This document shows, one piece after another, positions 4,537 through 34,485 of a stretch of 64,000 bases of DNA. Source of the DNA: Betaproteobacteria bacterium (GTDB taxonomy: Bacteria; Pseudomonadota; Gammaproteobacteria; Burkholderiales; Burkholderiaceae_D). The translations under genes were made by a program, and so were the position numbers. How positions within the stretch are numbered: the first letter of the stretch is position 1; each line of letters starts with the position of its first letter. The stretch is taken from contig JABDED010000004.1 of assembly GCA_013287275.1 (NCBI GenBank), forward strand, positions 1 through 64,000, in the 5' to 3' direction. The notes under the pieces are model-generated. The model saw only the letters and a list, made by a program, of their open reading frames with translations, had not been told where the DNA came from and did not search any database.

Positions 4537-4998
4537 TTAGTTGCGTCCTACGGACAGCATACTGTGCTTGCCATTGATCGCAATGACGACCCAGTTCTGC
4601 TCAATACGGACAATAGGAAAACCCCCAGGCAATTTGTCGCCAATATTCAGGGTTTGCAAATTGTTGGGATTATCTTTAAAACTGATGACCATCTGATTAG
4701 AGCCGCCGACCTTGATGACGGCGGCAATCCTCCAGTCTGGTGGCGTCAGCGGCTTTTCTTCGGCGGCGGGATTATTACCGGCTGCGACAGGCTCTTTCCA
4801 CAAGGTGCGGCTAATTAATTGTTCAACTTTTAATTTTGGATCTTGTTTAAAAACAGTAGGGATCTCCCACTGCTGGGCATCGCCATTGACGAGTTTGACC
4901 ACCGGTAAGGGTGGCAAAAACACTTTCATTAAAAGTAGGCTAAACAGGCTGAGCAAGGCTGCGACGATGACGCTGAGACGAATTTGCTGCCACATCAT
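4537..4998 (-). CDS. Short GspC-like inner-membrane component
   Basis: A 153-aa protein with one N-terminal membrane segment (about residues 9-29), a short linker, and a C-terminal periplasmic domain resembling the homology region of GspC or PilP (pattern I-A-A-V-I, then L-N-I-G-D-K-L-P-G-G-F-P-I-V-R-I). In type II systems this domain docks the inner-membrane platform to the GspD N0 domain. Classical GspC is larger and adds a PDZ or coiled-coil domain, which is missing here. The ATG overlaps the stop codon of the GspM-like gene by 4 bases (ATGA), and gspD follows 10 bases later. The position directly before gspD supports the GspC role. Some annotations would call it GspN or PilP-like. Confidence 0.75.
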   Translation of the reverse strand: MMWQQIRLSVIVAALLSLFSLLLMKVFLPPLPVVKLVNGDAQQWEIPTVFKQDPKLKVEQLISRTLWKEPVAAGNNPAAEEKPLTPPDWRIAAVIKVGGSNQMVISFKDNPNNLQTLNIGDKLPGGFPIVRIEQNWVVIAINGKHSMLSVGRN

Positions 4999-5687
4999 GA
5001 CTTGCCTTTCTCTGCATCGCTTACGGGGCTTTTTACTCTGCCTTTGCCGGCGGCATCGTCTAAAGAGTCGCTTTGACTGACCGGATTGGACGCCTGTCCG
5101 GACAAATGGGTAAAGGCTTTGAGGTTGATTTCGGCTCTGCCGGTGGTTCCCAGCCAGTTATAGGTAAGGGTTTCCACCACCATGCTTTGTTTGTTGGTAT
5201 CGATGACCTGTAAGATGTTATACAGGGTTTTCGGCACCGCTTCGAAGCGTAATTTTGCTTTCATGATGCCCATGCCCGGTACACCACTATTGCCCACCCC
5301 TTGACCACTCTTGGCGGCTGCCTCATCGGCGACGTTTTCCGACAAGGCGACGGAGGCATTGACGGTTTGTTCCTGATTCAGCAAGGTTTGCAGGCTATCA
5401 TTCCATTTGGACTGAATCAGTCCGTTGCTGCTGTCTATCCAATCGCGTCCACGCAATTCTTCTAATACCTGACTGGCTTCCTTGCTACGGCTGAGCCAAG
5501 CGGTGTCGGTGGCTTGCTGACGCGCCTGTTCGAGCTGGACGCTGAGCTTACGATAGTCCTTTTGATGTTTGGCGACTTGTTCCGATTTATCCAGTGTCAG
5601 GTAAGCACCCACGATGGCAATGATCAATGCTAGACCTACCCGTAATCTGACATTGTTGGCGAGTTGCGTGCGTATGCTATCAGCCAT
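4995..5687 (-). CDS. gspM: Type II secretion GspM-like protein
   Basis: A 230-aa inner-membrane protein starting MADSIRTQL. I chose this ATG at 5685-5687 over a longer in-frame opening because a good ribosome site (GGAAGGGG) precedes it and it overlaps the previous gene by only 8 bases. One membrane helix at about residues 16-34 is followed by a heptad-rich coiled coil (about 38-75) and a ferredoxin-like periplasmic domain ending in a Ser/Asp/Lys-rich tail. This matches GspM/PilO, which pairs with GspL in the assembly platform. The call rests on architecture and position between gspL and gspC, since the family is weakly conserved. Confidence 0.8.
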   Translation of the reverse strand: MADSIRTQLANNVRLRVGLALIIAIVGAYLTLDKSEQVAKHQKDYRKLSVQLEQARQQATDTAWLSRSKEASQVLEELRGRDWIDSSNGLIQSKWNDSLQTLLNQEQTVNASVALSENVADEAAAKSGQGVGNSGVPGMGIMKAKLRFEAVPKTLYNILQVIDTNKQSMVVETLTYNWLGTTGRAEINLKAFTHLSGQASNPVSQSDSLDDAAGKGRVKSPVSDAEKGKS

Positions 5688-6819
5688 TGCTACCCCTTCC
5701 ATCGGCATTCGGTTTGTCTTGTAGCATGCTAACGCCTTTCTTCGGCAATACCACCATGCGAAAAGACAGACTCTTATTGTCGCGCGCCAACAAGTTTTGC
5801 ACTTCACTGAAATAGCCACTGCTCATCAGGGTTTTGGTGATGTCTGCACGCGATGGGGTTTCCAGACCGCCATAGACGATGATCCTGAGTTTATTTTCAG
5901 TAAATTCCCATTCGCGGATGGTGGAGTCCGATGGCAGGGCGTCGGCCACAGCGCTCATCATCTCCAACTGGCTGGGATAGGGGTCAAGCCGCTGGCGATT
6001 GGCAACTTCATCGACGGCTTTTAATGCGGCATCACGGGCCTGCACCAGGCTATTCGCCTGCCCGGTAAGTTGGGCCATAGCTTGTTTGTTGCGCTCGATC
6101 CCGTCGCTAATTTGATGATCGCGCATACTATACCAGCCGTACGGCAATGTTACGCATAAGAACAATAAGACGTACAGCCATTGCTCCATGGCTGGATTGA
6201 CCGACAACAAGCCAGCACCAGTCACTACCGGCAACCACGGTTGCACCTGATCGCCAGCCGATTGTGCTGGCGGTACTTGGGTAAGGTGAGCGACCGGATG
6301 ACCAACTTCACGACAAAAGGCAATGTACTCCTGCATTTCCGGCATCTGAGCCCACCATCGACTGGCGTACAATTGGCCATTCTGCCAATACTGTACCTCA
6401 ACGCCATCGAGACAACGAAGTATGCGCATACTATCGACTGACGGCGCCCAAAGTACGGTTTCTGGCATCACTTCGGCGTTGTGCCAGAGTGTTGGCAGCT
6501 GGGCGCGCTGAGTTTGTAGCCACGTTGCATCCCAGCACCACACCAATGCAGCATCAGCCTCAAATATGATCGCAAAATCGGGCTGGGCAAACGGCGCCCA
6601 TTGTTTAAGCTGCAATTGCAAAGCCTGAGCGCGGCGCTTGATAGGTATCGCCTTCAAATCAAAACGTGAAAAACGGCAAAAACCGCGCGCAATAACGATC
6701 TGACCTGGTAAATACGCCTTCCCAGGCTTATTGTGGGGGGGCTTCGAAGATAGATATATTCGACGCGGCGCTGGGAGGCGCAGCCTTAAGGTCGAAAGGA
6801 TTTGACGAAATTGCGTCAT
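5680..6819 (-). CDS. gspL: Type II secretion GspL-like protein
   Basis: A 379-aa assembly-platform protein. A cytoplasmic actin-like N-terminal half (about 1-215) is followed by one membrane segment (LYVLLFLCVTLPYGWY) and a periplasmic part with a coiled coil and a ferredoxin-like fold. GspL normally recruits the GspE ATPase to GspM. The start is uncertain. I favour ATG at 6817-6819 (MTQFRQIL), which overlaps the end of gspK by 92 bases and has a poor ribosome site; the frame is open further upstream, but that would bury more of gspK. No usable start codon is seen right after the gspK stop. Its coding stretch overlaps gspM by 8 bases. Confidence 0.8.
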   Translation of the reverse strand: MTQFRQILSTLRLRLPAPRRIYLSSKPPHNKPGKAYLPGQIVIARGFCRFSRFDLKAIPIKRRAQALQLQLKQWAPFAQPDFAIIFEADAALVWCWDATWLQTQRAQLPTLWHNAEVMPETVLWAPSVDSMRILRCLDGVEVQYWQNGQLYASRWWAQMPEMQEYIAFCREVGHPVAHLTQVPPAQSAGDQVQPWLPVVTGAGLLSVNPAMEQWLYVLLFLCVTLPYGWYSMRDHQISDGIERNKQAMAQLTGQANSLVQARDAALKAVDEVANRQRLDPYPSQLEMMSAVADALPSDSTIREWEFTENKLRIIVYGGLETPSRADITKTLMSSGYFSEVQNLLARDNKSLSFRMVVLPKKGVSMLQDKPNADGRGSNG

Positions 6820-7747
6820 TGTTTTTTTGTGTGATTCGTTGAGGAACACTATAGTAATAATCGATACGCCACGGTGCATCAGCGGCGATCGGGGTAAGCG
6901 CGACATTATATCTGATCGAAGTCTCTTGCCCGCCAGAACCGAGACTGACCCGTATTGTGTCTGCTGGAAAAGCAATCACTTTCAAAAGCAGTTGCTGTGA
7001 ATCTATACCTAGTAAATTTGCCAGTTGCACTTCATTCAAGATGGGTTCAATGCTACGGTATTGCAGTAACTTTGGCAAAACCGTCGGTGTCACCCCCGGC
7101 AAAGTCAGCAATACCGGTGCAGGTGCTGTATTCGGGTTCAACGCTATCGCTCTGGCAGTGGTGATCCAGTCGGTCAACGGTTCATCGCCCTGCCACAAGA
7201 CTTTCTGGTCTCTCCAGCCGTACACCTGACGCAATTGATCCGGGGTGATCAAAGGATGTCCGGTAGGCTCCGGTAGACCTGCTTCTTTGTAGGCACTTTT
7301 AGCGACCCCGTTGAGCCGGTGCACGTTCGGATTCGGATCTACATAATCCATTAGCGTGTCGTACAGTTTGTCATGCTCGGATTCCGGCACCGCTTTTTGG
7401 TTCAGCAGAATACCGAGCGAATCGCGATTCGCTCCATTGATCAGGTACAGTCCGCGGGTGTCTTGCAGGCGGGCGATGCAATCACCTTCCATCCGGTATG
7501 CCTGATTATCGAGCTTGATATGGGCCGCCACATCACCTATGCCGTACATACTCAGCGGCCTAGTCGCGAGTATATAGGCGATTTCTGCTTTGCTATCACT
7601 ACACGCAACCTGACTCTGGATGTGTGCATCATATTGTTTTGCCAATTGTATCGAGCTGGCTATTCGTTGCGCGAAAAAGGCAGCGGCAATAGTGATGCCG
7701 GCCAGTATCCACAGTGTAGCCACCAGAATAAATCCACGCTGTTTCAA
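6728..7747 (-). CDS. gspK: Type II secretion minor pseudopilin GspK
   Basis: A 339-aa minor pseudopilin. It opens MKQRGFILVATLWILAGITIAA, the prepilin-peptidase site (cleavage after Gly5) followed by the hydrophobic helix. A large globular domain inserted in the pilin fold makes GspK longer than the other pseudopilins, as usual. It caps the pseudopilus tip with GspI and GspJ. The start codon is TTG at 7745-7747. It is supported by a GGAG ribosome site 7 bases upstream and by a 4-base overlap (TTGA) with the gspJ stop, which suggests translational coupling. Confidence 0.92.
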   Translation of the reverse strand: MKQRGFILVATLWILAGITIAAAFFAQRIASSIQLAKQYDAHIQSQVACSDSKAEIAYILATRPLSMYGIGDVAAHIKLDNQAYRMEGDCIARLQDTRGLYLINGANRDSLGILLNQKAVPESEHDKLYDTLMDYVDPNPNVHRLNGVAKSAYKEAGLPEPTGHPLITPDQLRQVYGWRDQKVLWQGDEPLTDWITTARAIALNPNTAPAPVLLTLPGVTPTVLPKLLQYRSIEPILNEVQLANLLGIDSQQLLLKVIAFPADTIRVSLGSGGQETSIRYNVALTPIAADAPWRIDYYYSVPQRITQKNNDAISSNPFDLKAAPPSAASNISIFEAPPQ

Positions 7748-8364
7748 TTTAATACTCCAGCGAGCGCTTTTTGCAGGTCAGGCAAGGGATTGACCGGCCC
7801 GGCGGGATTAAATGACAGTATCCACGGCTGACCGTCGCGCTCTGTTTCCAGACGTATGCTGGCTGGAATTTGCCGGCTGTGATCGAGTTCCGGCGGCCAA
7901 CTCTCATACTCACGCTGTTTGTTATCAATGTAGATAAATCTACCGCGACTGCCCTCCCAGCTCCATAGCTGTATGGGCCTATCTTTGTGTAACTGGTCCG
8001 CGTATTCGACGACTGTGCGATTATCAGTGATGTCGTAACGCATTTTCAGGCTGAAGGGGGTCGGCATACCGAATTGTTCGGTCAACACCGAAGTACTGAG
8101 ACCACTGATCTCGTTACCATTGCCCTGAAATTTATTTCCACCATCGTCAAGATCGGGCTGCAATCCTTCCATCAATTGCCTTATCCACGACTGCGCTATG
8201 GCTTGTTGTCGGTTGCGGTCCAGTTCCACTCCGAAACGATGGTGCAACGTCATTACATGTTGCAAAGCCTGCAATAAAATCATGACGATCATACCAGACA
8301 TGGCAATCACGACCAGCATCTCCAAGATGGTAAAACCCGCAAGACGTCGCCTAGAAAATACCAT
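7744..8364 (-). CDS. gspJ: Type II secretion minor pseudopilin GspJ
   Basis: A 206-aa prepilin-like protein with the cleavage motif RRLAGFTILEMLVVIA near its start (Gly10, with Glu at +5 after cleavage) followed by a hydrophobic helix. The length and the position between gspI and gspK match GspJ, part of the pseudopilus tip. It overlaps the end of gspI by 14 bases and shares 4 bases with gspK, so the pseudopilin genes form one coupled unit. Confidence 0.9.
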   Translation of the reverse strand: MVFSRRRLAGFTILEMLVVIAMSGMIVMILLQALQHVMTLHHRFGVELDRNRQQAIAQSWIRQLMEGLQPDLDDGGNKFQGNGNEISGLSTSVLTEQFGMPTPFSLKMRYDITDNRTVVEYADQLHKDRPIQLWSWEGSRGRFIYIDNKQREYESWPPELDHSRQIPASIRLETERDGQPWILSFNPAGPVNPLPDLQKALAGVLN

Positions 8365-8773
8365 TTTGCTCGCGTACTTTCTTGAAGCCGGCTAATTTCA
8401 AGTGCAAGGTGAACCAAGATGGGTCTTGAGTCGTTTTGGCGTTTACTTCCACGTCATACAAACCCACTTGATACAAACCTATGCCCAACGGGTAGGCTCG
8501 GTTATCTGCGACCGGGCCTAATACCTTAGATTGCCACTGGATACCGTAGGCACCGAATTCTGCCTTGCCTTCAGGATTTTGCATGGGATTGATCGCCTGC
8601 ATATAGCTAATCACATTCGCAATAGCATCGTTGCGGGCATTAATAGACTGGACTTTACCTAGCGAAATGATACTCGTGTTGATCCATGCGAACAAAGTCA
8701 TGCCTATCGTACCGACCAGAGCAAAGGCGACGATCGCTTCTAGCAGAGTAAATCCTTGTTGTTTTTTATTCAT
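8351..8773 (-). CDS. gspI: Type II secretion minor pseudopilin GspI
   Basis: A 140-aa minor pseudopilin starting MNKKQQGFTLLEAIVAFALVG, the canonical K-x-x-G-F-T-L-L-E prepilin site. The ATG at 8771-8773 was chosen because it places this motif at the N-terminus, as the family requires; a longer opening upstream would add 20 unrelated residues inside gspH. The start overlaps the gspH stop by 8 bases. The position in the G-H-I-J-K order identifies it as GspI. Confidence 0.9.
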   Translation of the reverse strand: MNKKQQGFTLLEAIVAFALVGTIGMTLFAWINTSIISLGKVQSINARNDAIANVISYMQAINPMQNPEGKAEFGAYGIQWQSKVLGPVADNRAYPLGIGLYQVGLYDVEVNAKTTQDPSWFTLHLKLAGFKKVREQNGIF

Positions 8774-9194
8774 TACTGACTCCACATCCCGGAGCCTGTA
8801 AACGCAAGGATTCAGGTGCATGATCCGGCGCATTCAGGATCACCACTCCGCCACCGCAGTAACCATTGAACTGATAATGTATCGGAGTCGGCACCCGCAC
8901 CACCCATCCGGCCGGCACATCAAGTGCAGGCTGATCGTCTTTGAGGGTATCGCTGATATTTTCGGTGCGCAAAGTATAATCTTGCGCTAGCAGGTAATTT
9001 CGATAACTGAGGGCATTGATCTGCGCAATCACACTTGAACGTTCGCTACGATAACGCAGACTGTCTATCAGTTTTCCTAGTGCCGGGACAGCGAGCGAAC
9101 CCAACAATCCCATCATTGCCAACACGATCAGTAACTCCAGAAGCGTAAAACCGTACTGTCGCGACGCCGATTGCTTATTGCTGTTTGTCGGCAT
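8766..9194 (-). CDS. gspH: Type II secretion minor pseudopilin GspH
   Basis: A 142-aa minor pseudopilin. After a 14-residue leader (MPTNSNKQSASRQY) comes the prepilin motif GFTLLELLIVLAMMG. The ATG at 9192-9194 is preferred over a longer frame that would read back through gspG. The C-terminal half (GYCGGGVVIL and a final CG pair) is compact and could carry a disulfide. The gene starts 20 bases before the end of gspG, keeping the pseudopilin genes tightly packed. GspH normally links the pseudopilus tip to the GspG shaft. Confidence 0.88.
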   Translation of the reverse strand: MPTNSNKQSASRQYGFTLLELLIVLAMMGLLGSLAVPALGKLIDSLRYRSERSSVIAQINALSYRNYLLAQDYTLRTENISDTLKDDQPALDVPAGWVVRVPTPIHYQFNGYCGGGVVILNAPDHAPESLRLQAPGCGVSNE

Positions 9195-9633
9195 GGCTGC
9201 CAGTGGGAACGATACCAATCGCGCCTTCACCATTCTGGTTACCGTCTGGGCCCAGTGAATACAATGCAAATGGTTTCCCCGCCGGGCCAGGTACTGCATA
9301 CATATACGACGCCCCCCATGGATCGGTAGGCAAGTCTTCGTCGAGGTAAGGGCCTTTCCACTTGTTTTTGATTTTTTCGTCCGTCGGAGGGTTATTCAGC
9401 AAGGCCAGCCCTTCGGATTGAGTAGGGAAGCGGCCAAGGTCGAGACGCATGGTTTCTAGTGCGCCTTTCAGCATTTTGACCTGGGTTTGCGCTGTCTGCA
9501 CTTTGGATGAGTCCAGTTTGCCGAATAATTTAGGCCCGACCAGACTCGCTAGCAAACCTATGATCACAAGAACAACTAACATTTCTATCAGCGTAAAACC
9601 CGCTGTGCGGTACATTTTTTTCATCAATTTCAT
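9175..9633 (-). CDS. gspG: Type II secretion major pseudopilin GspG
   Basis: A 152-aa major pseudopilin that builds the pseudopilus shaft. The prepilin motif AGFTLIEMLVVLVIIGLLA lies near the N-terminus. The C-terminal part has the features of GspG, including LGRFPTQSEGL and DPWGASYMY, which carry the conserved calcium-site region. The open frame also allows GTG at 9637-9639, but ATG at 9631-9633 has the better spacing to GAGAG, so I start there. A 145-base gap separates it from gspF, the only real break inside the gsp operon, and that gap holds a 14-bp palindrome. Confidence 0.95.
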   Translation of the reverse strand: MKLMKKMYRTAGFTLIEMLVVLVIIGLLASLVGPKLFGKLDSSKVQTAQTQVKMLKGALETMRLDLGRFPTQSEGLALLNNPPTDEKIKNKWKGPYLDEDLPTDPWGASYMYAVPGPAGKPFALYSLGPDGNQNGEGAIGIVPTGSHADKQQ

Positions 9634-9648
9634 ATTCACTCTCGCTTA

Positions 9649-9784: not shown

Positions 9785-10987
9785 TTAAACAGCGATATCA
9801 CTGAGGCTGGTAATAGCCATCATGATAGCAGCCATGATCAAGCCTATCACAGAGCCTATCAACAAAATCGTGATCGGTTCCAGCATAATCAAAAATCGTT
9901 TCATGCGTTCTTGCCCAGCATTGGTATGCAGTACTGACAAAGTTTTGAGCGTCGTCGACAATTCGCCGGTACGCTCACCGACTCTGACCAGATTCAGCCC
10001 CATAGGGTTCAAAGTCCGATGCATGCCCAGGGATTCGGCCAGTGATTTCCCCCCCTTTAAGTCTTTTACGGCAAGCCCTAATTGCTGCTTCAGTAAGCTG
10101 ATCTGCACTCCACCCTGCGCCAGTTCCATGGCTCTGACTATGGGCACCTTGTTTTCCAACAGGGTCGATAACATCCCTGCCCATCTGCCGATTTCAGTTT
10201 CTATCAACCAAGCACCGATTAAGGGCATACGTGCCAGCCCGTCCCAGAATTTTTGCCGCACTTGCGGTCGCGAAAATAGGCTCGCCAAAAAAAACACGGC
10301 AATCGCCACACCGGCTCCTAGTATCAGCAAATGTTCTTTGACAAACATCCCCGTCTGCAACACCCACACTGAGATGTCCGGCAACTTGCCCTTGCTGTTT
10401 TTTAATAGCCCGGCGAACTTTGGTACGACGACGATAAAAATCAACAAGGTGGCGAGTACCCCGGATACCGCTAGTACGGTAGGGTAAGTCAGTGCATTGC
10501 GCATTTCCTGACGAATTTTTTCTTCGTATTCCATCTGATTCGCACCGTGATGCAAGGAGCTTGCCAGTTTGCCGGTCATTTCACCCGCAGAGACCAGTTG
10601 TATCAGATAGTCAGGAAAGCTGATGCCGCAAGAGGTCAAGGCACGGGATAAATTGCCGCCACCGCGCAACACATGATAAATCTGGGTTGATGCCTGTCCG
10701 ACCGGGGACGCGCCGGCAGCTTCGCTCATGGACTGTATCGCTTCGACCAGAGGCACGCCCGCCGCCAGCAAGGTTGCCAGTTCGCGCACCATCAACATCT
10801 TATCCTGAGCGCTGACGACACGTCGCCCGCTCGCCTGTCTGGCCGCCGGCGACTCGATCGCGTGGAGTGCAATCGGCGTTAAACCTTGCTGTTTGAGTAA
10901 GCGCATCGCATCGGTTTCGTTCGGGGCTTCGATCTGGCCTTTGACCAGGCGCCCATCCGCAGAGCTGGCTTCGTATTGGTAAGCCAT
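9785..10987 (-). CDS. gspF: Type II secretion inner-membrane platform protein GspF
   Basis: A 400-aa polytopic protein with two repeated T2SSF cytoplasmic domains and three membrane helices (about residues 170-190, 225-245 and 375-395). It forms the centre of the assembly platform that GspE drives. Conserved features are visible: ELATLLAAGVPLVEA, SAGEMTGKL in the first repeat, and VRVGERTGEL in the second. Its ATG overlaps the gspE stop by one base (TGATG), so gspE and gspF are translationally coupled. The length is normal for the family. Confidence 0.95.
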   Translation of the reverse strand: MAYQYEASSADGRLVKGQIEAPNETDAMRLLKQQGLTPIALHAIESPAARQASGRRVVSAQDKMLMVRELATLLAAGVPLVEAIQSMSEAAGASPVGQASTQIYHVLRGGGNLSRALTSCGISFPDYLIQLVSAGEMTGKLASSLHHGANQMEYEEKIRQEMRNALTYPTVLAVSGVLATLLIFIVVVPKFAGLLKNSKGKLPDISVWVLQTGMFVKEHLLILGAGVAIAVFFLASLFSRPQVRQKFWDGLARMPLIGAWLIETEIGRWAGMLSTLLENKVPIVRAMELAQGGVQISLLKQQLGLAVKDLKGGKSLAESLGMHRTLNPMGLNLVRVGERTGELSTTLKTLSVLHTNAGQERMKRFLIMLEPITILLIGSVIGLIMAAIMMAITSLSDIAV

Positions 10988-12708
10988 CAGCTCGCCACCT
11001 GATTACTCAACCCAGTCACGCGCATCACTTCATCTATGGTCGTCATGCCGTTACGCGCTTTGATTAGGCCATCTTCCCGCAAATTACGATAGCCATCGCG
11101 TTTGGCTAAAAGATTGACTTCATGCGTAGGCAAGCGCTGCACGATCGCAGCCTGCAACTCGGTAGTGACTTCGACAAATTCATAAATGCCGACGCGACCG
11201 CGATAGCCGGTGTTCTGACATTGCGGACAACCAGTCGCATGGTGCCACTTCGGCGGCTCGGCCATCAAAGCCGGGAAACGTTCCTGCAGCTCCTGCATTT
11301 GTTCAGCAAAGTCGGCGGGCGCCAGTTGCATCAACTCTTCATCGCTTAAGCTTTGGGCGCAATGAGGGCATAAGCGTCGTACCAGCCGTTGTGCCTGAAC
11401 CGCCCGCAGAGATGATGCCACCAGGAAAGGCTCCAAACCCATATCGATCAGACGGTTGAACGCACCTATCGCATCATTTGTATGCAAGGTCGAAAACACC
11501 ATGTGACCGGTCAATGCAGACTGTACGGCAATTTCTGCGGTTTCCAAATCGCGGATTTCACCGATCATGATGATGTCTGGATCATGCCGCAAGATTGCCC
11601 GCAAAGCGCGGGCAAAAGTGTACTCGATCTCGGCATGGGTCTGAATCTGGGTAATTCCATCCATCTTGTATTCGACCGGATCTTCAACGGTGATGATTTT
11701 CTTCTCACGATCATTGGCTTCCGCCAGTGCAGCATACAGGCTGGTACTTTTGCCGGAACCGGTCGGTCCGGTCACGAGGACTATGCCATGCGGCTCTTTA
11801 ATCCATTTGCGGAACTTGTCCAGATGATCCTGTTCCATGCCGAGACGCTTGAGGCTGAAATCCTTGCGTTCTTTGGGCAGTAAACGCAATACAATCGATT
11901 CGCCATGGACACCGGGAATCACGGATACACGAATGTCGATATCGATGCCGCTGGCACGGATACTAATGCGGCCGTCTTGCGGTAAACGCCGCTCCGCAAT
12001 ATCCAGGCCGGAAATCAATTTGATACGCGATACAACGGCATCAAAACGATCGCGGCCAAAACTCATTTTGGTGGTTAGGATGCCGTCAACCCGGAAACGA
12101 ATTTCAAAGCCGTGTTCCTCCGGTTCTATGTGGATATCGGAAGCACCAATATCAATAGCCTGTGCCCACGTATTATTTACCAGCTCAATGACCGGCGCTT
12201 CTTCAGCCAATTCGCGTAAGTGCGCGACTTCATCGGAAAACGCAGCAGAGATGGAATCCGAGCGGATTAGATTGGCGATACGTTCAATATCGCGCGAACG
12301 AACAAAACCCCACTGCAATTGATGTTGCGGGTAAGCATTGCACAGCGTTTCCCTGGCAAAGCTGTTCAAGGGATTGGTGGAGGCGCAGGCGATCGTACCG
12401 TCGGCACTTTCCCATAAAATAATTTCTTGTTCCAATAGCCATTCGGTACTTAATCCGCCAAGCTGGGCCGCCTGCTCGACCAGCTGTGCGGTGGCTGGTA
12501 ACAGGGCCTCGTCCAGCAAGGGAATATCCAACTGTTGTGCCAGCACTGGCAATAAATTGTCTTCGGATATCGCGCCAATACGGATCAAAATTTGCCCAAG
12601 ACGCGCCCCAAGCTGGGGTTGCAGCTGTAATGCGCGTTCTATGTCTTGCTCTAAAACCAGTTGCTTCGCAATTAATAATTCACCAATTGGTGTCAAGTTC
12701 ATGGACAT
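10987..12708 (-). CDS. gspE: Type II secretion ATPase GspE
   Basis: A 573-aa secretion ATPase. The N-terminal domain (about 1-150) contacts GspL. The ATPase core has Walker A GPTGSGKST near residue 315, the Asp-box region (ITVEDPVEY), Walker B-like IIMIGEIRD and the His box (STLHTNDA). A zinc-binding loop with two CxxC pairs (CPHC near 446, CPQC near 496) is typical of GspE and PilB. It powers pseudopilus assembly from the cytoplasm. It starts 8 bases after the SoxZ-like gene. A second ATG two codons in (12700-12702) is also possible. Confidence 0.95.
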   Translation of the reverse strand: MSMNLTPIGELLIAKQLVLEQDIERALQLQPQLGARLGQILIRIGAISEDNLLPVLAQQLDIPLLDEALLPATAQLVEQAAQLGGLSTEWLLEQEIILWESADGTIACASTNPLNSFARETLCNAYPQHQLQWGFVRSRDIERIANLIRSDSISAAFSDEVAHLRELAEEAPVIELVNNTWAQAIDIGASDIHIEPEEHGFEIRFRVDGILTTKMSFGRDRFDAVVSRIKLISGLDIAERRLPQDGRISIRASGIDIDIRVSVIPGVHGESIVLRLLPKERKDFSLKRLGMEQDHLDKFRKWIKEPHGIVLVTGPTGSGKSTSLYAALAEANDREKKIITVEDPVEYKMDGITQIQTHAEIEYTFARALRAILRHDPDIIMIGEIRDLETAEIAVQSALTGHMVFSTLHTNDAIGAFNRLIDMGLEPFLVASSLRAVQAQRLVRRLCPHCAQSLSDEELMQLAPADFAEQMQELQERFPALMAEPPKWHHATGCPQCQNTGYRGRVGIYEFVEVTTELQAAIVQRLPTHEVNLLAKRDGYRNLREDGLIKARNGMTTIDEVMRVTGLSNQVAS

Positions 12709-12716
12709 GCTGAATT

Positions 12717-13025
12717 CTAAATGGTGACGGGAAAAGCTTCGATCGCGGTTTTACCCGAATTATCCAGCCACTCAACTTTGATGGTGTCTTTTTTGAGTAT
12801 ATGCTTTGCCCTGAAAACTAGATTCGGGCGGGATGCCATACCCGGATTGAACTGGGCAGAAAACAGGACGCGTTCATTACAGGTGACGCTGAGTTCCTGT
12901 ATAAAATTTCTATAATTTACTTTTCCGGAATGAGCCTGAACTGCGCTGTCGTCACGAAAAGGGTTATCGATAGACATAGTCATTTCCAGATAGTCATTCT
13001 GGCGTTTAAATGTCATTGCAATCAT
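12717..13025 (-). CDS. SoxZ-like protein in the type II secretion operon
   Basis: A 102-aa protein resembling SoxZ, the immunoglobulin-like partner of the SoxY sulfur carrier. It shares the HFIQELSV-like core (here NFIQELSVTCNERVLFSAQFN), then NPxLxF-like RPNLVFRAK, and the ending IKVEWLDNSGK. The family's HPMETG loop is replaced by NPFRDD. The start ATG lies only 2 bases after the stop of the SoxY-like gene and the stop is 8 bases before gspE, so all three are probably co-transcribed. There is no signal peptide; classical SoxZ also lacks one and is exported bound to Tat-targeted SoxY. No other sox gene is present in the window. The fold assignment is from memory of the family. Confidence 0.7.
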   Translation of the reverse strand: MIAMTFKRQNDYLEMTMSIDNPFRDDSAVQAHSGKVNYRNFIQELSVTCNERVLFSAQFNPGMASRPNLVFRAKHILKKDTIKVEWLDNSGKTAIEAFPVTI

Positions 13026-13027
13026 GG

Positions 13028-13492
13028 TTATTCAGTCAAAAGTTTGTTGTCCAGAGGCACCGCGATTTTGACTTCTTTTTGCGCGGTATAGAGTTTGCCT
13101 CCGGCACGGACCACCAGTTGCAATGTAGTCGTCCCTTTTAATTTAATCTGGGTTTGAATATCGGCTTCTGTACCGACCAGAATATTAAACTGAGCCAGTA
13201 CCGGAGGAACGGTATTGGCAGTCATCAACAACATCATATCTGTACCTGGCAACTCACTACGTAAATGTATGGCAACGCGATCCGGATCCGCACTGATTTC
13301 CGGTACCCCGATCAGCAAACGGTTGCTGGGCTCGAGAGCATCTTTCTCCGGCAAATTCTTCAATGCTTCCGCCGTCGAATTTGCTTCAAACATTTTTCTG
13401 CTGGCAGCAGCGAAAGACAGTTTGGCAAGAAACCCACTGGCTATAGTGACTAATCCGGATAAAATATAAAGACGTCGGGATTTATCTAACAT
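13028..13492 (-). CDS. Cysteine-free SoxY-like protein with Tat-type signal
   Basis: A 154-aa SoxY-like protein. The N-terminus has a twin-arginine motif (SRRLYIL, residues 5-11) before a hydrophobic stretch, so Tat export to the periplasm is likely. The middle follows the SoxY pattern (ADPDRVAIHLRSELPGTDMM, then VPPVLAQFNI and KEVKIAV). True SoxY ends in a GGCGG-like swinging arm whose cysteine carries the sulfur intermediates. This protein ends in DNKLLTE and has no cysteine anywhere, so it cannot act as that carrier. It heads the operon that continues through soxZ-like, gspE and the rest. The ribosome site is weak. Function unknown. Confidence 0.65.
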   Translation of the reverse strand: MLDKSRRLYILSGLVTIASGFLAKLSFAAASRKMFEANSTAEALKNLPEKDALEPSNRLLIGVPEISADPDRVAIHLRSELPGTDMMLLMTANTVPPVLAQFNILVGTEADIQTQIKLKGTTTLQLVVRAGGKLYTAQKEVKIAVPLDNKLLTE

Positions 13493-14162: not shown

Positions 14163-15005
14163 ATGCGTCTGATCAATTCTTTACTGAGTTTCGCTCAGGC
14201 GCCGTGGACCGTTTTGTGGAAAAACCGGACCTTGCTCTTTCAATTGTGCCAGCGTGATATTAACGCCAGGTATAAGGGCGCGTCCCTGGGCTTAGCATGG
14301 TCGATTTTGTTGCCGCTGATGATGCTAGCGATCTATGCTTTTGTGTTTGGTGAAATCTTCAAATCGCGTTGGGGAAATTTACCTGCGCCACAAACTTGGT
14401 CAGAACGGCTGAGTTTCGCATTGATCCTTTACGCTGGCTTGATTGTTTTCAATTGGTTTGCAGAATGTCTGTCTAAATCGCCGACAATGATATTGAATAA
14501 TGCCAATTTTGTGAAACGCGTCGTATTCCCTCTAGATATTTTGCCGGTTATTCCTGTAGTTATTGGCGCGTTCCATTTCTCCATGAGTTTTGTGGTGTTG
14601 ATGGTGTTTACCGTACTTTCGCCAATGGCATTCAGTTTTTATTGGCTGATGGTACCTATGCTGCTGATTCCTTTTGTCTTATGCCTGATAGGAATTGCAT
14701 GGTTTCTTGCATCGCTGGGGGTCTATTTCCGAGATATGGAACAAGTGATGCCAGTATTGACCAGCGCGTTAATGTTCTTAAGCCCCGTGTTCTATTCAAT
14801 AGAGGTGTTACCCGCTTTTTTTCGCCGCTGGCTGATGGCGAATCCACTGACTTTTATTATCGAAGCATTAAGAAATTTACTATTTTGGCAAACTCTTCCC
14901 AATAAAATCGAAATTGCTCTGCTTTACCTGATGGCGGTCATTGTTTTTTATTTGGGCTTTCTCAGTTTTAAAACCTTGCGTAAAGGGTTTGCCGATGTCC
15001 TCTGA
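14163..15005 (+). CDS. wzm: ABC-2 polysaccharide exporter permease Wzm
   Basis: A 280-aa integral membrane protein with about six hydrophobic segments, of the ABC-2 family that exports finished O-antigen or capsule chains across the inner membrane. It has an amphipathic N-terminus with the family pattern RDINARYKGASLGLAWSILLPL, and a C-terminal region with LSPVFYSIEVLP and NPLTFIIEALRNLL. It is directly followed by its ATPase partner wzt, whose start overlaps its end by 11 bases. The pair shows that the polysaccharide is made by an ABC-transporter-dependent route rather than by a Wzx/Wzy route. Confidence 0.93.
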   Translation: MRLINSLLSFAQAPWTVLWKNRTLLFQLCQRDINARYKGASLGLAWSILLPLMMLAIYAFVFGEIFKSRWGNLPAPQTWSERLSFALILYAGLIVFNWFAECLSKSPTMILNNANFVKRVVFPLDILPVIPVVIGAFHFSMSFVVLMVFTVLSPMAFSFYWLMVPMLLIPFVLCLIGIAWFLASLGVYFRDMEQVMPVLTSALMFLSPVFYSIEVLPAFFRRWLMANPLTFIIEALRNLLFWQTLPNKIEIALLYLMAVIVFYLGFLSFKTLRKGFADVL

Positions 15006-16257
15006 TGTCATGATCCGCGCAACCGGACTGGGAAAGGCTTTTACTCTGGATGCTAGCCCGTTGAAGCAATTGCTCGCGCAATTGATGCCAGCAGCCCGAG
15101 CCTCGCATGAATTTTGGGCCTTGAAAGCGCTTGATCTGACGGTTCAGCGCGGTGACGTAATCGGTATTATTGGTCAAAACGGTTCTGGCAAATCCACGTT
15201 ACTGCAAATGCTGTGCGGCACCCTCACACCTACTTGTGGCGAAGTTCAAGTGAATGGGCGCTTAGCGGCATTGCTGGAACTAGGTGCTGGCTTTAATGCC
15301 AACTTTACTGGTTGGGAAAATATACGCTTAAGTGCATCCCTATATGGGTTGAGTGCCGAGGAAGTAGAGCGAAAACTACCTGCAATAGAAGCGTTTGCCG
15401 ATATCGGTGAATTTATTAACAAGCCGGTAAAAACTTACTCAAGTGGTATGTTTGTTCGCCTTGCCTTCGCTGTCATTGCCAATATCGACGCCGATATTTT
15501 AGTAATTGATGAGGCGTTGGCGGTCGGGGATGTATTTTTCACTCAAAAATGTATGCGCTTTTTGAAGGAATTCGCAAGGAGAGGAACAATTCTCTTCGTC
15601 AGTCACGATAGCACCAGTGTAGTTAGCCTTTGCAACAAAGCGCTATTGCTCGATCATGGACAGTTACTGGCGGTCGGCGCCCCGAAGACAATAACTGAGT
15701 ATTATCTCAAGAGGCAATATGATAGACGCCAAGCAATAGATACTGGAGGGGTGCCGGTTTCATCTGAAACGAAAGCCAGTCAAATCGCTGCGACTGCATC
15801 TTTCGAACAAAACAGCTTCGGCTTAGGTGGTGCGACAGTAACCCATTGCATCGTGACTGACGAAAAGGGGCACCCCGTGTTACAAGTCAATGGTCCAACA
15901 AAACTACGGCTGGTAATTCAAGTCTTTGCTAACGCTGCAATTGCTAAACCTATTGTGGGATTCTCAGTGAAAGACCGGCTTGGACAGGTTCTGTTTGGTG
16001 GGAACACTGAGAATTCACTTTCCAGTATCGATCCATTAACCGCTGGGCAGTCTGTTGAGACAACCTTCGACATCACTGTGCCCGGATTAGCACTCGGTGA
16101 TTACATGGTAAGCGTTGCTGCTGGAGAAGGAACGGCTACGGACCATGTCATGCACCATTGGATACACGATGCTTATCCTTTCCGGTCCGCATTACCCGTT
16201 CAAAGTGGAATGATAGAGCTTCCCATTGAACAAGTTAGCTTTAGGACGCTCAATTAA
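14995..16257 (+). CDS. wzt: ABC polysaccharide exporter ATPase Wzt with C-terminal binding domain
   Basis: A 420-aa protein. Residues 1-240 form the ATPase with Walker A GQNGSGKST, a signature region YSSGMFVRLAFA and Walker B ADILVIDEALAVGD. Residues from about 275 to the end form an extra beta-rich domain like the one that in E. coli O8/O9a Wzt recognises the capped non-reducing end of the O-chain. I start at ATG 14995 (MSSDVMI) because it has an AAAGGG ribosome site and a short overlap with wzm. The presence of the C-terminal domain predicts that chains carry a terminal modification, and the next gene supplies a methyltransferase that could make it. Confidence 0.93.
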   Translation: MSSDVMIRATGLGKAFTLDASPLKQLLAQLMPAARASHEFWALKALDLTVQRGDVIGIIGQNGSGKSTLLQMLCGTLTPTCGEVQVNGRLAALLELGAGFNANFTGWENIRLSASLYGLSAEEVERKLPAIEAFADIGEFINKPVKTYSSGMFVRLAFAVIANIDADILVIDEALAVGDVFFTQKCMRFLKEFARRGTILFVSHDSTSVVSLCNKALLLDHGQLLAVGAPKTITEYYLKRQYDRRQAIDTGGVPVSSETKASQIAATASFEQNSFGLGGATVTHCIVTDEKGHPVLQVNGPTKLRLVIQVFANAAIAKPIVGFSVKDRLGQVLFGGNTENSLSSIDPLTAGQSVETTFDITVPGLALGDYMVSVAAGEGTATDHVMHHWIHDAYPFRSALPVQSGMIELPIEQVSFRTLN

Positions 16258-16259
16258 AA

Positions 16260-19200
16260 ATGAATAACATTAAAAATGACGTCATGTCGGTAGCGCAACG
16301 CTATTCATATGATATTGACATCAATGCAGGTACGGCTGCAGCACAAGTAATCCGCCTAACAGGGCAAAATAAACGTGTTCTAGAACTAGGACCGGGCCCC
16401 GGCACCATCCTGCGCTTTCTTGCTCAACATAATCAATGCGAAGTAAATGCTGTGGAGTTTGATCCTGAGTGCGTGAAATTACTGCAACAGGTCTGCCATA
16501 CAGTCGTGGAAGGTGATTTGGATAGAAGCGATTGGCTGACAACTTTCGAGGGCCAACAATTTGATGTAATCATTGCCGCCGACGTATTGGAGCATCTTAA
16601 AAATCCTTGGCAATGCTTATCGAATGTACGCAGCTTACTCGCTCCAAACGGGTATTTGATTGTTTCAATTCCAAACGTTGGCCATAATTCGGTATTAGCC
16701 TCTCTAATCAGCGGGCGCTTCCCGTATCAGCATCGTGGGCTGCTGGACAAGACACATCTTCGATTCTTTACTCGTCAAGATTTCGGAAAAACATTATTTG
16801 AGGCCGGCTTTTTACCGAGTCATTGGTACGCAGTTCAAATGTCAGCGGCACAGGCTGAATTGGGTCACCATTGGCTCAATTTAGATCCAGCGCAACAAGC
16901 TGCACTTAATTCCAATCCGTACGGTGAAGATTACCAATACGTAGTAAAAGCCTTTTCAAGTAACGAAGCTGGGACTGTGGCTAGAAGCGAGCTGCTACAA
17001 GATGAATTACAAGCCATCAACACCCGCCAAGCTGAAGAACTTACAGATGCTCATAAAAAAATTGCGCAACTGCTTGCGACATATGAACAACAAGAAAATC
17101 ATTATTCGGATCAATTGGCTCAAGCTATAAAACAGGTGGGCGACTATCGCAAATTGCAAGAAAATTTAGCGCAGCTTGAACAACTGCAAAACCTCACCTC
17201 GGACCAAAATGTAGAGTTACGAAGGAAAATTGAAGACATATGGACTTCAACATCTTGGCGTTATACCGCACCTTTCAGGGGGATGAAAAAAATCCTGACG
17301 GGGACATCAAAACATAGTTTTCGCGACTACCTGCGCAGCTTTTACAGGATACTTCCCTCGGGAGTTAGAGCCCTCTTGGATCGAAGTGGCATAAGTTCCA
17401 CCGTCCGCGGCATTGCGCAGGACATGCCGGCGTCGAATAGATTAACTCTTCGACCTGGAAGCATAGGAAATGCTCACGCGCTGAAGATAATAGAAAATCC
17501 ATTCTCGCAAAATAGTGCGACGCAGGATGCATCGCCAACGGAAGACGTATTTTTTTGGGGCGTAATTGATTGGAATTTTCGATTTCAACGTCCTCAACAG
17601 CTCGCCCTTGGATTTGCGAAGCGTGGGCATAGAGTCTTTTACATAAGCTCAGAATTAGTCAATGATAAAGAGCCCGGATTCCAGGTAGAAGCAATTCCCA
17701 ATCATTCAAACATTTATCAAATTCGCTTTCATGCAGAATCAGCACCCTCGATATACGAGAGCAAAGCAATTGGAAAACTACTTCACCAGCTTCTACAAGG
17801 TTTAGCGTACCTCGTTCAATCCGCAAATACTAACGATTCAATTTCAATTGTGCAGCACCCATTCTGGCTGCCGCTGGCACGGAGTTTGCCAACAAATCAT
17901 ATGGCCTATGATTGTATGGACCATCATGAAGGATTCGGCAATGTTCCCCCAGAAGTAATCTCAGCTGAACGGGCGTTAATGCGCGAATCTGACACTTTAA
18001 TTGTCACTTCGGATTGGCTGTATAACATTGCAGAACATAAAAATAGAAATGTTTCCGTTGTACGTAACGCTTGCGAATTTAGCCACTTTAGCCCTTTTCC
18101 TGCTGTACGATTTCAAGATTCAAAAGCTAGAAAAATTATCGGCTACTTTGGAGCAATAGCAAACTGGTTCGACTGTGCCCTGATCGCAAAATTATCCGTC
18201 GAGCTACCTGACTGCTTGATATTGTTGATAGGCAACGATACCTGTGGGGCTCAAGAGCAATTTTCCAGTTTTAAAAATATAAAAATGGTCGGCGAAGTTA
18301 GCTATGAAAAATTACCGTATTACTTGCACGCGTTTGACGTTTGTATTTTGCCATTCCAAATTAGTGACCTGACACTGGCAACGAACCCCGTCAAGGTATA
18401 TGAGTATTTATGCTCAGGGAAGCCTATTGTGAGCGTAGATTTGCCCGAACTACATGGCATGAGCGAATTGGTTCACTTGGCAAAGGATCACCAGCAGTTT
18501 GCCGATAAATGCAAAGAAGCATTGCAAGAAACAATCGATGCTCCCGTTAGAAAAGAACGCGTTGAATTCGCCAGTAAACAAACTTGGGCCCATCGCGCGC
18601 AAGAATTTGAACTTGCTTTAGAGAAAAGTAAAGCTGCTTTCGTCAGTATTGTTGTAGTGACTTATAACAATTTAGACCTTACCAAACTTTGCTTAGCAAG
18701 CATCGACTCATATACCACCGGCGTCCGTTACGAAATTATTGTTGTTGACAATGCCTCCGCAGACGAAACGCCAAAATATTTAGAAGATTTCGCTAAGAAT
18801 CGGAAAGACGTTAAATTAATTCTAAATCAGGACAACCTGGGTTTTTCCAAAGCAAACAACCAAGGCCTTAATCTAGCGACTGGGGATTATCTCGTTGTCC
18901 TTAATAACGATACGGTAGTAACTCGCGGTTGGGCGAGTGGTCTTATTCGTCACTGCCGAAAAGATCCAACTATCGGTTTAATCGGTCCTGTGACGAATAA
19001 CATAGGTAACGAAGCGAAAATCAATATAGAGTATCAATCCTTAGATGAGATGCCAGGCAAAGCACGTGAGTATACACTTGCTCACCTCGGAGAATCTTTT
19101 GATATTCATACCCTTGCGTTTTTCTGCGTCATGATTACTCGAGGCGCTTATGAAAAAATTGGTGGATTGGATGAGGCATTTGGTCTTGGATTCTTTGAGG

Positions 19201-19394
19201 ATGATGATTATTGTCGCCGAATTGAACAGGCAGGTCTTCGCTTAGTTTGCGCAGATGATGTATTTGTTCATCACAATCTTTCCGCATCCTTCAATAAACT
19301 TGGAGAAGAGCGGAAGAGAGAATTATTCTTGCGAAATAAAACAATTTATGAAGCCAAGTGGGGTCAGTGGATCCCCCATAATTATCGCGTATAA
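16260..19394 (+). CDS. Methyltransferase / coiled-coil / double glycosyltransferase fusion
   Basis: A 1044-aa cytoplasmic multidomain protein. Residues 1-230 form a class I SAM methyltransferase (LELGPGPGT at 41-49, then DVIIAADVLEHL). Residues 235-320 are Gln/Glu/Leu-rich coiled coil. From about 429 to 790 lies a GT-B type glycosyltransferase (WGVIDWNFRFQRPQQLA, later VYEYLCSGKPIVSVD). Residues 792-1044 form a GT-A family 2 glycosyltransferase (VSIVVVTYNN, VDNASADET, VVLNNDTVV, FFEDDDYCRRI). It follows wzt after 2 bases. A methyltransferase joined to a coiled coil next to a Wzt with a binding domain recalls WbdD, which caps O9a chains and measures their length. Here the fused transferases could elongate and the methyltransferase could cap. 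Individual specificities are unknown. Confidence 0.85.
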   Translation: MNNIKNDVMSVAQRYSYDIDINAGTAAAQVIRLTGQNKRVLELGPGPGTILRFLAQHNQCEVNAVEFDPECVKLLQQVCHTVVEGDLDRSDWLTTFEGQQFDVIIAADVLEHLKNPWQCLSNVRSLLAPNGYLIVSIPNVGHNSVLASLISGRFPYQHRGLLDKTHLRFFTRQDFGKTLFEAGFLPSHWYAVQMSAAQAELGHHWLNLDPAQQAALNSNPYGEDYQYVVKAFSSNEAGTVARSELLQDELQAINTRQAEELTDAHKKIAQLLATYEQQENHYSDQLAQAIKQVGDYRKLQENLAQLEQLQNLTSDQNVELRRKIEDIWTSTSWRYTAPFRGMKKILTGTSKHSFRDYLRSFYRILPSGVRALLDRSGISSTVRGIAQDMPASNRLTLRPGSIGNAHALKIIENPFSQNSATQDASPTEDVFFWGVIDWNFRFQRPQQLALGFAKRGHRVFYISSELVNDKEPGFQVEAIPNHSNIYQIRFHAESAPSIYESKAIGKLLHQLLQGLAYLVQSANTNDSISIVQHPFWLPLARSLPTNHMAYDCMDHHEGFGNVPPEVISAERALMRESDTLIVTSDWLYNIAEHKNRNVSVVRNACEFSHFSPFPAVRFQDSKARKIIGYFGAIANWFDCALIAKLSVELPDCLILLIGNDTCGAQEQFSSFKNIKMVGEVSYEKLPYYLHAFDVCILPFQISDLTLATNPVKVYEYLCSGKPIVSVDLPELHGMSELVHLAKDHQQFADKCKEALQETIDAPVRKERVEFASKQTWAHRAQEFELALEKSKAAFVSIVVVTYNNLDLTKLCLASIDSYTTGVRYEIIVVDNASADETPKYLEDFAKNRKDVKLILNQDNLGFSKANNQGLNLATGDYLVVLNNDTVVTRGWASGLIRHCRKDPTIGLIGPVTNNIGNEAKINIEYQSLDEMPGKAREYTLAHLGESFDIHTLAFFCVMITRGAYEKIGGLDEAFGLGFFEDDDYCRRIEQAGLRLVCADDVFVHHNLSASFNKLGEERKRELFLRNKTIYEAKWGQWIPHNYRV

Positions 19395-19487
19395 ATTTCC
19401 AGCTTAAATAAAATTCCAACTGAGAATGTTTTGATACCCTCAAGCATCTGAATACACGAATGCTCAAGCTCACGTGAGCAGGCCATA

Positions 19488-20591
19488 ATGAATATGAAAA
19501 AAATTATTTGCGTAGTAGGCACCAGACCCGAAGCCATCAAGATGGCACCTGTGATTCAACACCTATCAAAAGAACCGTGGGCCGAAGTCAAAGTTTTAGC
19601 AACTGCGCAGCATCGTCAAATGCTGGATCAAGTTCTCAAGTTATTTAAGATAGAACCGGACAGGGACCTTAACGTAATGGAGCCAAACCAAACTTTGACT
19701 TCGCTTACGTCAAAGCTGTTAAGTGAGTTAGATACGGTGTTCAAAGAAGAGCTTCCCGACGCTGTGTTAGCGCAAGGTGATACAACTACTGTCATGACGG
19801 TCGCTTTATGTTGTTTCTATCATCGGATTCCATTTGGACATGTCGAAGCGGGTTTAAGAACTGGTGATATTTGGAATCCCTATCCTGAGGAAATGAACCG
19901 GGTTGTTGCCGGTCGCCTCGCTAAATGGCACTTCGCTCCAACGGAGGGCGCGCGTCAAAATCTATTACGAGAAGGTATCGCAGAAGAAACCATACATTTG
20001 ACAGGCAACACTGTGATTGACGCACTTTTAAGTGTTTCAAAAGAAAGTGATGCACTCGATATGGCTATCGGGCATGATAAACGACTTATATTGGTGACAT
20101 CTCATCGTCGTGAAAATTTTGGAGAGCCGTTTAAAGAAATTTGTCGAGCGATTTTGTATTTAGTTGAGAAAAATCCCGATATTGAAGTCCTTTATCCTGT
20201 GCATCCTAATCCGAACATTCAGGCAGTCGCCCATTCACTTCTGGGTAATAACCCCCGTATTCGTTTGTGCGAACCGCTTGATTATTTACCGTTTGTCACG
20301 GCTATGAAGAAAGCGTATTTAATACTAAGTGATTCGGGAGGAGTGCAAGAAGAGGCTCCCGCCCTGGCAAAACCGGTACTAGTTCTGCGCCGTGAAACTG
20401 AGCGCCCGGAAGCGGTGGAACATGGGGTAGTCAAACTCGTTGGTACCGACTTTGAGGCTATAGTTTCTGAGGCTCAACGATTACTTGATGATCCCGAATA
20501 TTATAGCCAGATGGCAAAGGGGGTTTCCCCCTATGGCGATGGTTTCGCTAGCGAGCGAATTACGCAAGTTTTGAAACGTGCATTAAGTTAA
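19488..20591 (+). CDS. wecB: UDP-N-acetylglucosamine 2-epimerase (non-hydrolysing)
   Basis: A 367-aa enzyme that interconverts UDP-GlcNAc and UDP-ManNAc in the cytoplasm for polysaccharide synthesis. Family features are visible: GTRPEAIKMAPVI at the start, then TAQHRQMLDQVL, AQGDTTTV, HVEAGLRTGD, NPYPEEMNR, TSHRRENFG, and DSGGVQEEAP near the end. The length is normal. Starts at codon 1 or codon 3 (both ATG) are possible. The usual partner WecC, which oxidises UDP-ManNAc, is not in the window, so the product may be ManNAc itself. Two bases separate it from the next glycosyltransferase gene. Confidence 0.93.
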   Translation: MNMKKIICVVGTRPEAIKMAPVIQHLSKEPWAEVKVLATAQHRQMLDQVLKLFKIEPDRDLNVMEPNQTLTSLTSKLLSELDTVFKEELPDAVLAQGDTTTVMTVALCCFYHRIPFGHVEAGLRTGDIWNPYPEEMNRVVAGRLAKWHFAPTEGARQNLLREGIAEETIHLTGNTVIDALLSVSKESDALDMAIGHDKRLILVTSHRRENFGEPFKEICRAILYLVEKNPDIEVLYPVHPNPNIQAVAHSLLGNNPRIRLCEPLDYLPFVTAMKKAYLILSDSGGVQEEAPALAKPVLVLRRETERPEAVEHGVVKLVGTDFEAIVSEAQRLLDDPEYYSQMAKGVSPYGDGFASERITQVLKRALS

Positions 20592-20592
20592 C

Positions 20593-34433: not shown

Positions 34434-34485
34434 GATTGCTTTGAAACACAAATAGGAAGAAAAAAAGAGAAACATCAATGCAAAT

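Follow-up and report, generated by a model that had tools for sequence, protein, structure and literature searches.

We describe a conserved SoxY-like and SoxZ-like protein pair which has lost the sulfur-carrying residue of its family and is linked to a type II secretion system (T2SS). The pair was found in the window, the whole stretch of 64,000 nucleotides analyzed here from a Betaproteobacteria bacterium genome (56% complete), where it opens a T2SS operon of the order soxY-soxZ-gspE-F-G-H-I-J-K-L-M-C-D. Judging from sequence evidence, the pair is quite probably a functional and previously unrecognized periplasmic accessory of an S-layer-type T2SS, in which a SoxY-SoxZ beta-sandwich heterodimer without sulfur arm would serve a specialized secretion machine. 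The best clue to its role is an S-layer-like protein encoded next to gspD, which had gone unmentioned in the initial annotation of the pair. Adaptor, chaperone, assembly factor and cargo may all be considered as roles of the pair. The genes of the locus are as follows:

14163 to 21744, plus strand: surface polysaccharide genes, divergent from soxY, assigned by Pfam matches
13028 to 13492, minus strand: SoxY-like gene, 154 amino acids, twin-arginine N-terminus (SRRLYIL), without cysteine or GGCGG arm
12717 to 13025, minus strand: SoxZ-like gene, 102 amino acids, no signal peptide seen on inspection, a single cysteine that is not conserved
10987 to 12708, minus strand: gspE, T2SS ATPase (T2SSE and MshEN domains; T2SSE E 9.2e-134)
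9785 to 10987, minus strand: gspF, T2SS platform protein (T2SSF E 5.9e-45)
9175 to 9639, minus strand: gspG, major pseudopilin (T2SSG E 5.7e-32)
7744 to 9299, minus strand: gspH, gspI and gspJ, minor pseudopilins, three open reading frames with N_methyl matches (that of gspJ below cut-off), order the same in relatives; the gspH start as listed (9299) runs into gspG and should probably be placed later
6728 to 7747, minus strand: gspK (T2SSK_1st E 6.2e-06)
4995 to 6975, minus strand: gspL and gspM, named by position, order conserved in relatives
4537 to 4998, minus strand: GspC-like protein in GspC/N position, 153 amino acids (T2SSC E 0.00096, below cut-off)
2160 to 4526, minus strand: gspD, secretin (Secretin E 7.7e-48)
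404 to 1906, minus strand: S-layer-like protein gene, 500 amino acids, rich in Ala, Thr, Val and Gly, Sec-like signal by eye, no Pfam family

Gaps of 2 bases between soxY and soxZ and of 8 bases between soxZ and gspE tie the pair to the operon; its place at the head of the T2SS genes had been proposed with these gaps, and coordinates, strand and spacing were all found as described. Membership of the operon in the T2SS family is indicated by Pfam matches above cut-off for E, F, G, K and D and below cut-off for C, together with a gene order that is kept in relatives; a Pfam search of the gspL and gspM reading frames gave no T2SSL or T2SSM match. The S-layer-like gene is separated from gspD by a 253-base gap. 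No clear operator was recognized among the inverted repeats upstream of soxY. The divergent polysaccharide region encodes an ABC-2 exporter, a Wzt-type ATPase with a Wzt_C domain, a methyltransferase/glycosyltransferase, a UDP-GlcNAc 2-epimerase and one reading frame without Pfam match.

Both proteins belong to the SoxY and SoxZ fold families, as had been suggested at the outset and is borne out by profile and fold searches. The SoxY-like protein passes the Pfam SoxY model (PF13501; E 1.1e-12, 48.6 bits, cut-off 28.4) and the SoxZ-like protein the Pfam SoxZ model (PF08770; E 5.9e-16, 58.4 bits, cut-off 25). Matches to TIGR04488 and TIGR04490, the NCBIfam equivalogs for functional thiosulfate carriers, stay below cut-off, with 73.1 of 125 bits for SoxY and 49.5 of 76 bits for SoxZ. 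In a phmmer search of PDB sequences, the SoxY-like protein retrieved SoxY structures (2NNC, E 8e-11) and nothing was found for the SoxZ-like protein. The AlphaFold model of the SoxY-like protein has a mean pLDDT of 68.1, with values of about 70-86 in the core (residues 51-140) and below 50 for residues 1-32 and 147-154. Its first 15 PDB structure matches are all SoxY or SoxYZ entries, with TM scores of 0.73-0.86 (normalized to the target) against the SoxY chains of 2OXG and 2OX5. In case of the SoxZ-like protein, mean pLDDT was 83.9 with a weak stretch at residues 21-40 (56-60), and the best PDB matches were chains A, C and E of the SoxYZ entries 2OXH, 2OXG and 2OX5 (E 4.7e-05 and weaker, TM 0.67-0.74), taken as SoxZ chains since B, D, F and Y match SoxY. 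The underlying alignments comprised 25 sequences for SoxY, 21 of them ordinary SoxY, and 21 for SoxZ, and the predicted folds lean on the ordinary ones. With respect to known T2SS accessories (pilotins GspS/AspS, GspA/GspB), the only Pfam matches of the pair above cut-off were SoxY and SoxZ. A defense function was considered and rejected, as PADLOC gave no match for the pair or for the S-layer-like protein.

The C-terminus of the SoxY-like protein reads KEVKIAVPLDNKLLTE where sulfur carriers have GGCGG. The GGCGG arm is absent from all 14 SoxY proteins linked to a T2SS. All nine with a SoxZ partner lack cysteine altogether, and in four of the five without SoxZ cysteines are confined to the first 31 residues, the presumed signal. 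A cysteine-free pair had been claimed; this is correct for the SoxY-like protein, in which both cysteine and arm are missing, but not for the SoxZ-like protein, which contains a single cysteine (C49) that among seven aligned SoxZ-like proteins is common only to Undibacterium terreum. Alignments of 10 SoxY or seven SoxZ sequences contain no conserved cysteine column. We surveyed the arm in 55 loci, of which 49 had a readable SoxY reading frame, five were unreadable (L039, L044, L045, L049, L051) and one gave no match (L030), the latter two groups being left out of the arm count and the tree. In the eight surveyed loci beside gspE (the window as L001, L002-L004, L015 and L031-L033, where L002/L032 and L003/L033 apparently represent the same two species), the matched part is free of cysteine and shows no GGC near the end. 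SoxY encoded elsewhere ends in GGCGG, GGCG or GGC in 39 of 41 readable loci. The exceptions are L025, with a frame of 293 residues, and L027, where a cysteine-free SoxY and a SoxZ lie by an M48 peptidase; the latter shows that loss of the cysteine by itself also happens outside the T2SS context.

Two further SoxY loci may be described here. In G059, a genome of another family of the order, a cysteine-free SoxY (tail RVRKGTAG) and a SoxZ directly follow an M48 peptidase (L088, 6195-8421), which by reading is BepA-like, and SoxYZ may have a second use linked to the envelope. The genome of the window itself encodes a second SoxY on another contig, away from the T2SS (L086, 1158-2010 of contig C2), which has a cysteine near its end (VTLAACIEGDV) and is followed by a 111-residue reading frame in SoxZ position.

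A search with PF13501 returned two SoxY proteins for this genome, one of them in the window. The statement that no other sox gene is present in the window stood for SoxY and for SoxB, whose model gave only a sub-cut-off match of the 5'-nucleotidase type. SoxB above cut-off was found in two of the 14 carriers of a T2SS-linked SoxY, namely G437 (about 75 kb from gspE) and G026 (on another contig), and none was found in the window genome at its 56% completeness. Weaker SoxB matches occur in 10 further carriers, and matches of similar kind in 10 of 14 control genomes. The one in the window is a 5'-nucleotidase/metallophosphoesterase gene (32754-34478) about 19 kb from the pair. In G015, G034, G026, G028, G030 and G013, similar weak matches are about 8-15 kb distant from the T2SS; the distance is about 75 kb in G437 and 95 kb in G011. 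The nearness of this gene to the T2SS is probably ordinary synteny.

A role in sulfur oxidation was rejected on the grounds of the missing arm, the lack of a conserved cysteine and the SoxB survey. A wider reading, according to which the pair carries a sulfur species, a metal or another ligand via a different residue or is a decaying sulfur carrier, would agree with its sequence descent from the SoxY and SoxZ families and with the one SoxZ cysteine in the window. We consider it improbable, given that no cysteine column is conserved in either alignment and that SoxB is not above cut-off in 12 of 14 carriers and is distant in G437 and G026. Decay is further opposed by selection. Eight of nine between-genome comparisons of soxY or soxZ gave dN/dS of 0.035-0.10 (gspE: 0.03), dS between the window and U. 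griseum being close to saturated, and the ninth (soxZ of G223/G186) gave 0.22 on a dS of 0.036. These low values indicate that soxY and soxZ are kept by purifying selection.

The distribution of the pair was examined in Undibacterium (43 genomes), the genus being named via U. terreum, U. griseum and U. oligocarboniphilum, which carry the pair. Nine of the 43 genomes had a gspE match with an E value of 1e-130 or lower. Five of these (G000, G437, G013, G030, G015) encode a GspE 85-100% identical to that of the window, and the pair adjoins it in every case, whereas a close SoxZ (E 1e-8 or better) was found in none of the 38 other genomes of the genus. The remaining four (G034, G011, G026, G028) encode a GspE of 47-48% identity; a SoxY-like gene is the immediate neighbor of gspE there, and the approximately 19 kb examined contain no SoxZ. 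With the window SoxZ as query, none was found elsewhere in three of these four genomes, and G026 has one on another contig. In these SoxY-only loci the order is slp-soxY-gspE, with gspF and later genes on the other strand. Surface polysaccharide genes also lie beside the pair in Undibacterium relatives.

Beyond the genus, we examined 20 order-level loci, chosen as best gspE matches minus G000 and G030, whose pairs were already known. SoxY lies beside gspE in seven of them (L056, L057, L058, L060, L070, L071 and L072, with L070 and L072 again from Undibacterium). Locus L060 has the window's order soxY-soxZ-gspE, L056, L057 and L058 carry the pair divergent from gspE, and L071 has SoxY alone. 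The other 13 have no SoxY beside gspE, an absence that is unsure for L061 and L066 (0.8 and 0.9 kb of sequence upstream of the gspE match) and less sure for L059 and L062 (1.1 and 1.5 kb). Within f21, another family of the order, four of 10 genomes encode a GspE of 63-68% identity and exactly these four have a SoxY match, one each. The class-level loci L076-L081 (GspE of 51-61% identity) showed no SoxY in the stretch examined. A profile search of 30 loci (L056-L085) with alignments A1 and A2 found SoxY in 11, six of these with SoxZ, and neither in 19. That the pair always lies beside gspE holds in part: it is conserved in relatives, but three loci have it divergent, a second lineage has SoxY only and some T2SS loci have neither gene.

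SoxY and GspE are each widespread by themselves. In a class survey of 369 genomes, 179 had a SoxY match and 169 a GspE match with E of at most 1e-115, and order-wide a SoxY match was present in 248 of 399 genomes, a set not used for adjacency. A generic adjacency of SoxY and gspE was rejected: among the matches listed and inspected by eye, the two are adjacent in the window genome only, and the next closest, on one contig, are about 25 kb apart.

In the SoxY tree, one branch splits the 14 T2SS-linked proteins from the 41 others (support 97/86; 98% of 200 bootstrap trees); the tree is unrooted, built on a short domain and contains very long branches (G409, 3.91), and the bootstrap had not settled. 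The nine SoxZ-paired and five SoxY-only proteins form two groups, which is compatible with one or with two linkages to gspE. A merely inherited neighborhood that lacks any functional link appears very improbable to us. It is true that the co-occurrence counts share ancestry, so that the tests are not independent and Fisher values are descriptive only. Still, the linkage was kept in three families through changed arrangements (same strand, divergent, SoxY alone), and the six f21 genomes without close gspE gave no SoxY at E 0.001.

The signals of the two proteins suggest how they may reach the periplasm. The Tat signal first assigned to the SoxY-like protein is recognizable on motif basis, as SRRLYIL near the N-terminus, from which we infer that this protein leaves by Tat. 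Twin arginines near the N-terminus are present in all nine SoxY proteins with a SoxZ partner and in one of five without (G034), its relative G028 having RH at this position; some start codons behind these counts were chosen by hand, and the difference may reflect a single evolutionary change. A twin arginine in the paired SoxY is what hitchhiking of SoxZ through Tat would need.

A probable substrate of the machine is encoded close by. Every one of the 14 carrier loci encodes, near the secretion genes, an apparently Sec-exported S-layer-like protein of about 475-610 residues, rich in Ala, Thr and Gly; for L057 and L058 recognition was by position, signal and composition only. The window protein is called S-layer-like on account of its gene position and composition, a signal recognized by eye and its resemblance to counterparts at other loci; it had no Pfam match, and a PDB sequence search returned nothing credible. 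The other paired Undibacterium loci (L084, L085, L093, L094) encode, downstream of gspD, relatives that are 45-58% identical to the window protein, and similarity extends to L095 (31%) and L060 (25% over part, E 2e-4) in f21, to which L057 and L058 belong as well. The SoxY-only loci have a second S-layer-like family, encoded beside soxY in L070, L072, L082 and L083 and, in L096 (38%), on the opposite strand about 3.4 kb past gspD. We regard the S-layer-like protein as a probable substrate of this T2SS, which would thus probably export a surface-coat protein.

How the pair would serve this substrate can be outlined as follows. The SoxY-like and SoxZ-like proteins would fold and pair in the cytoplasm, and the signal-less SoxZ would leave together with SoxY via Tat, as their signals suggest. 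Once in the periplasm, the dimer (in the second lineage, SoxY by itself) would bind the freshly Sec-exported and aggregation-prone S-layer-like subunit and block its self-assembly. The subunit would then be passed to the GspC/GspD entrance and on to the cell surface. Such an escort is in our view the most likely of the mechanisms, put forward tentatively. Its possible history, which we offer with somewhat more reserve, would be that a sulfur carrier became a Tat-exported S-layer escort with SoxZ hitchhiking, and that one lineage lost SoxZ and subsequently the need for a Tat signal.

Several S-layer-like genes occur without SoxY, detected by similarity in L067-L069 (38-41%), L081 (36%) and L097 (29% over part) and chiefly by composition in L063, L064, L065 and L098. 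As at least the T2SS loci L067-L069 and L081 have such a gene without SoxY, SoxYZ is not generally needed for S-layer-type secretion. Further, six of the 43 Undibacterium genomes have the window version of the S-layer-like gene. Five are those with the pair; in the sixth, G436, a contig end truncates the gene, and no close gspE or SoxZ was detected, which counts against an escort.

The position of the pair at gspE also speaks against an escort insofar as it fits a role on the machine side equally well. There, the dimer would be a structural or assembly factor that binds periplasmic GspC, GspD, GspL or GspM or aids secretin assembly. This is the main rival reading, which we consider possible though rather unlikely. 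In line with it, the operon that contains gspE begins with the pair in Undibacterium and in G341, and between species the pair has diverged about as much as GspJ, GspL, GspM and GspC (identities between the window and G015: SoxY 59%, SoxZ 62%, GspJ 59%, GspL 60%, GspM 51%, GspC 57%, GspE 85%). Against it, related T2SS loci with several kb of sequence upstream of gspE are devoid of the pair, for instance L067, L068, L069, L076, L077 and L081, and the SoxY-only Undibacterium loci place SoxY between the S-layer-like gene and gspE with gspF onward on the other strand.

Type II secretion systems export folded proteins, Tat-exported ones included, and a folded Ig-like dimer would suit such a machine as cargo. 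The pair itself might then be exported or be a surface component, for example a minor part of the S-layer. This is unlikely in our estimation, since the paired lineage encodes the pair with the machine and not with the substrate, and since between the window and G437 the pair is far more conserved (85 and 88% identity) than the S-layer-like protein (58%). To our knowledge, no common recognition signal has been accepted for T2SS substrates, and it is likewise, as far as we know, an open question how S-layer subunits pass through the periplasm without assembling on the way. Both questions would become testable with a small conserved pair that belongs to one T2SS and one probable substrate.

Comparison with known systems places the pair among SoxYZ relatives with altered function. 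With the SoxYZ thiosulfate carrier (PF13501/PF08770; PDB 2OX5, 2OXG, 2OXH, 2NNC, 4UWQ) it shares both folds, separate Y and Z genes in tandem, a twin-arginine SoxY and a signal-less SoxZ. It differs in having neither GGCGG arm nor SoxY cysteine, in lying in a T2SS operon and in the lack of a nearby SoxB. Should the T2SS-tied role prove true, a SoxY/SoxZ family match would be shown not to imply sulfur oxidation. The quinoprotein-dehydrogenase-associated SoxYZ-like carrier (TIGR04557) is likewise a SoxYZ relative outside the thiosulfate pathway. Its example PP_2677 is described, in the available part of PMC12997753, as a fused protein of the ped cluster with PQQ alcohol dehydrogenases and a SoxH-like hydrolase. 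The match here is weak and limited to the SoxZ half (24.2 of 140 bits). Divergent SoxY groups with altered swinging arms and other genomic contexts are reported in the accessible sections of PMC11237559, among them SoxY-S1b beside beta-barrel assembly-enhancing proteases; in these sections we found no T2SS context for them. The sox and gsp genes are treated apart in PMC2864759, as far as its accessible text goes.

The closest parallel on the substrate side is Slr4 of Pseudoalteromonas tunicata, an S-layer protein with a predicted Sec signal and no Pfam domain which is encoded adjacent to a T2SS operon proposed to serve specifically this protein (accessible part of PMC7821379). The arrangement is alike, known here from gene position, and SoxYZ is not mentioned for Slr4 in that part of the paper. 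At the level of titles and abstract openings, the open-access literature, with subscription papers outside this search, yielded no pairing of SoxYZ with type II secretion, of SoxY with GspE or of SoxY with an S-layer, and open-access literature likewise yielded nothing on S-layers in Undibacterium.

Finally, two observations concern the wider surroundings of the operon. Genes for a Wzt_C ABC polysaccharide exporter and glycosyltransferases lie near the T2SS in both types of Undibacterium locus (L070, L082-L085 and the window), and polysaccharide genes at this place would fit an anchoring of the S-layer to surface polysaccharide. Further along the window, positions 22112-23410 encode a HipA-type protein (HipA_C E 2.3e-26).
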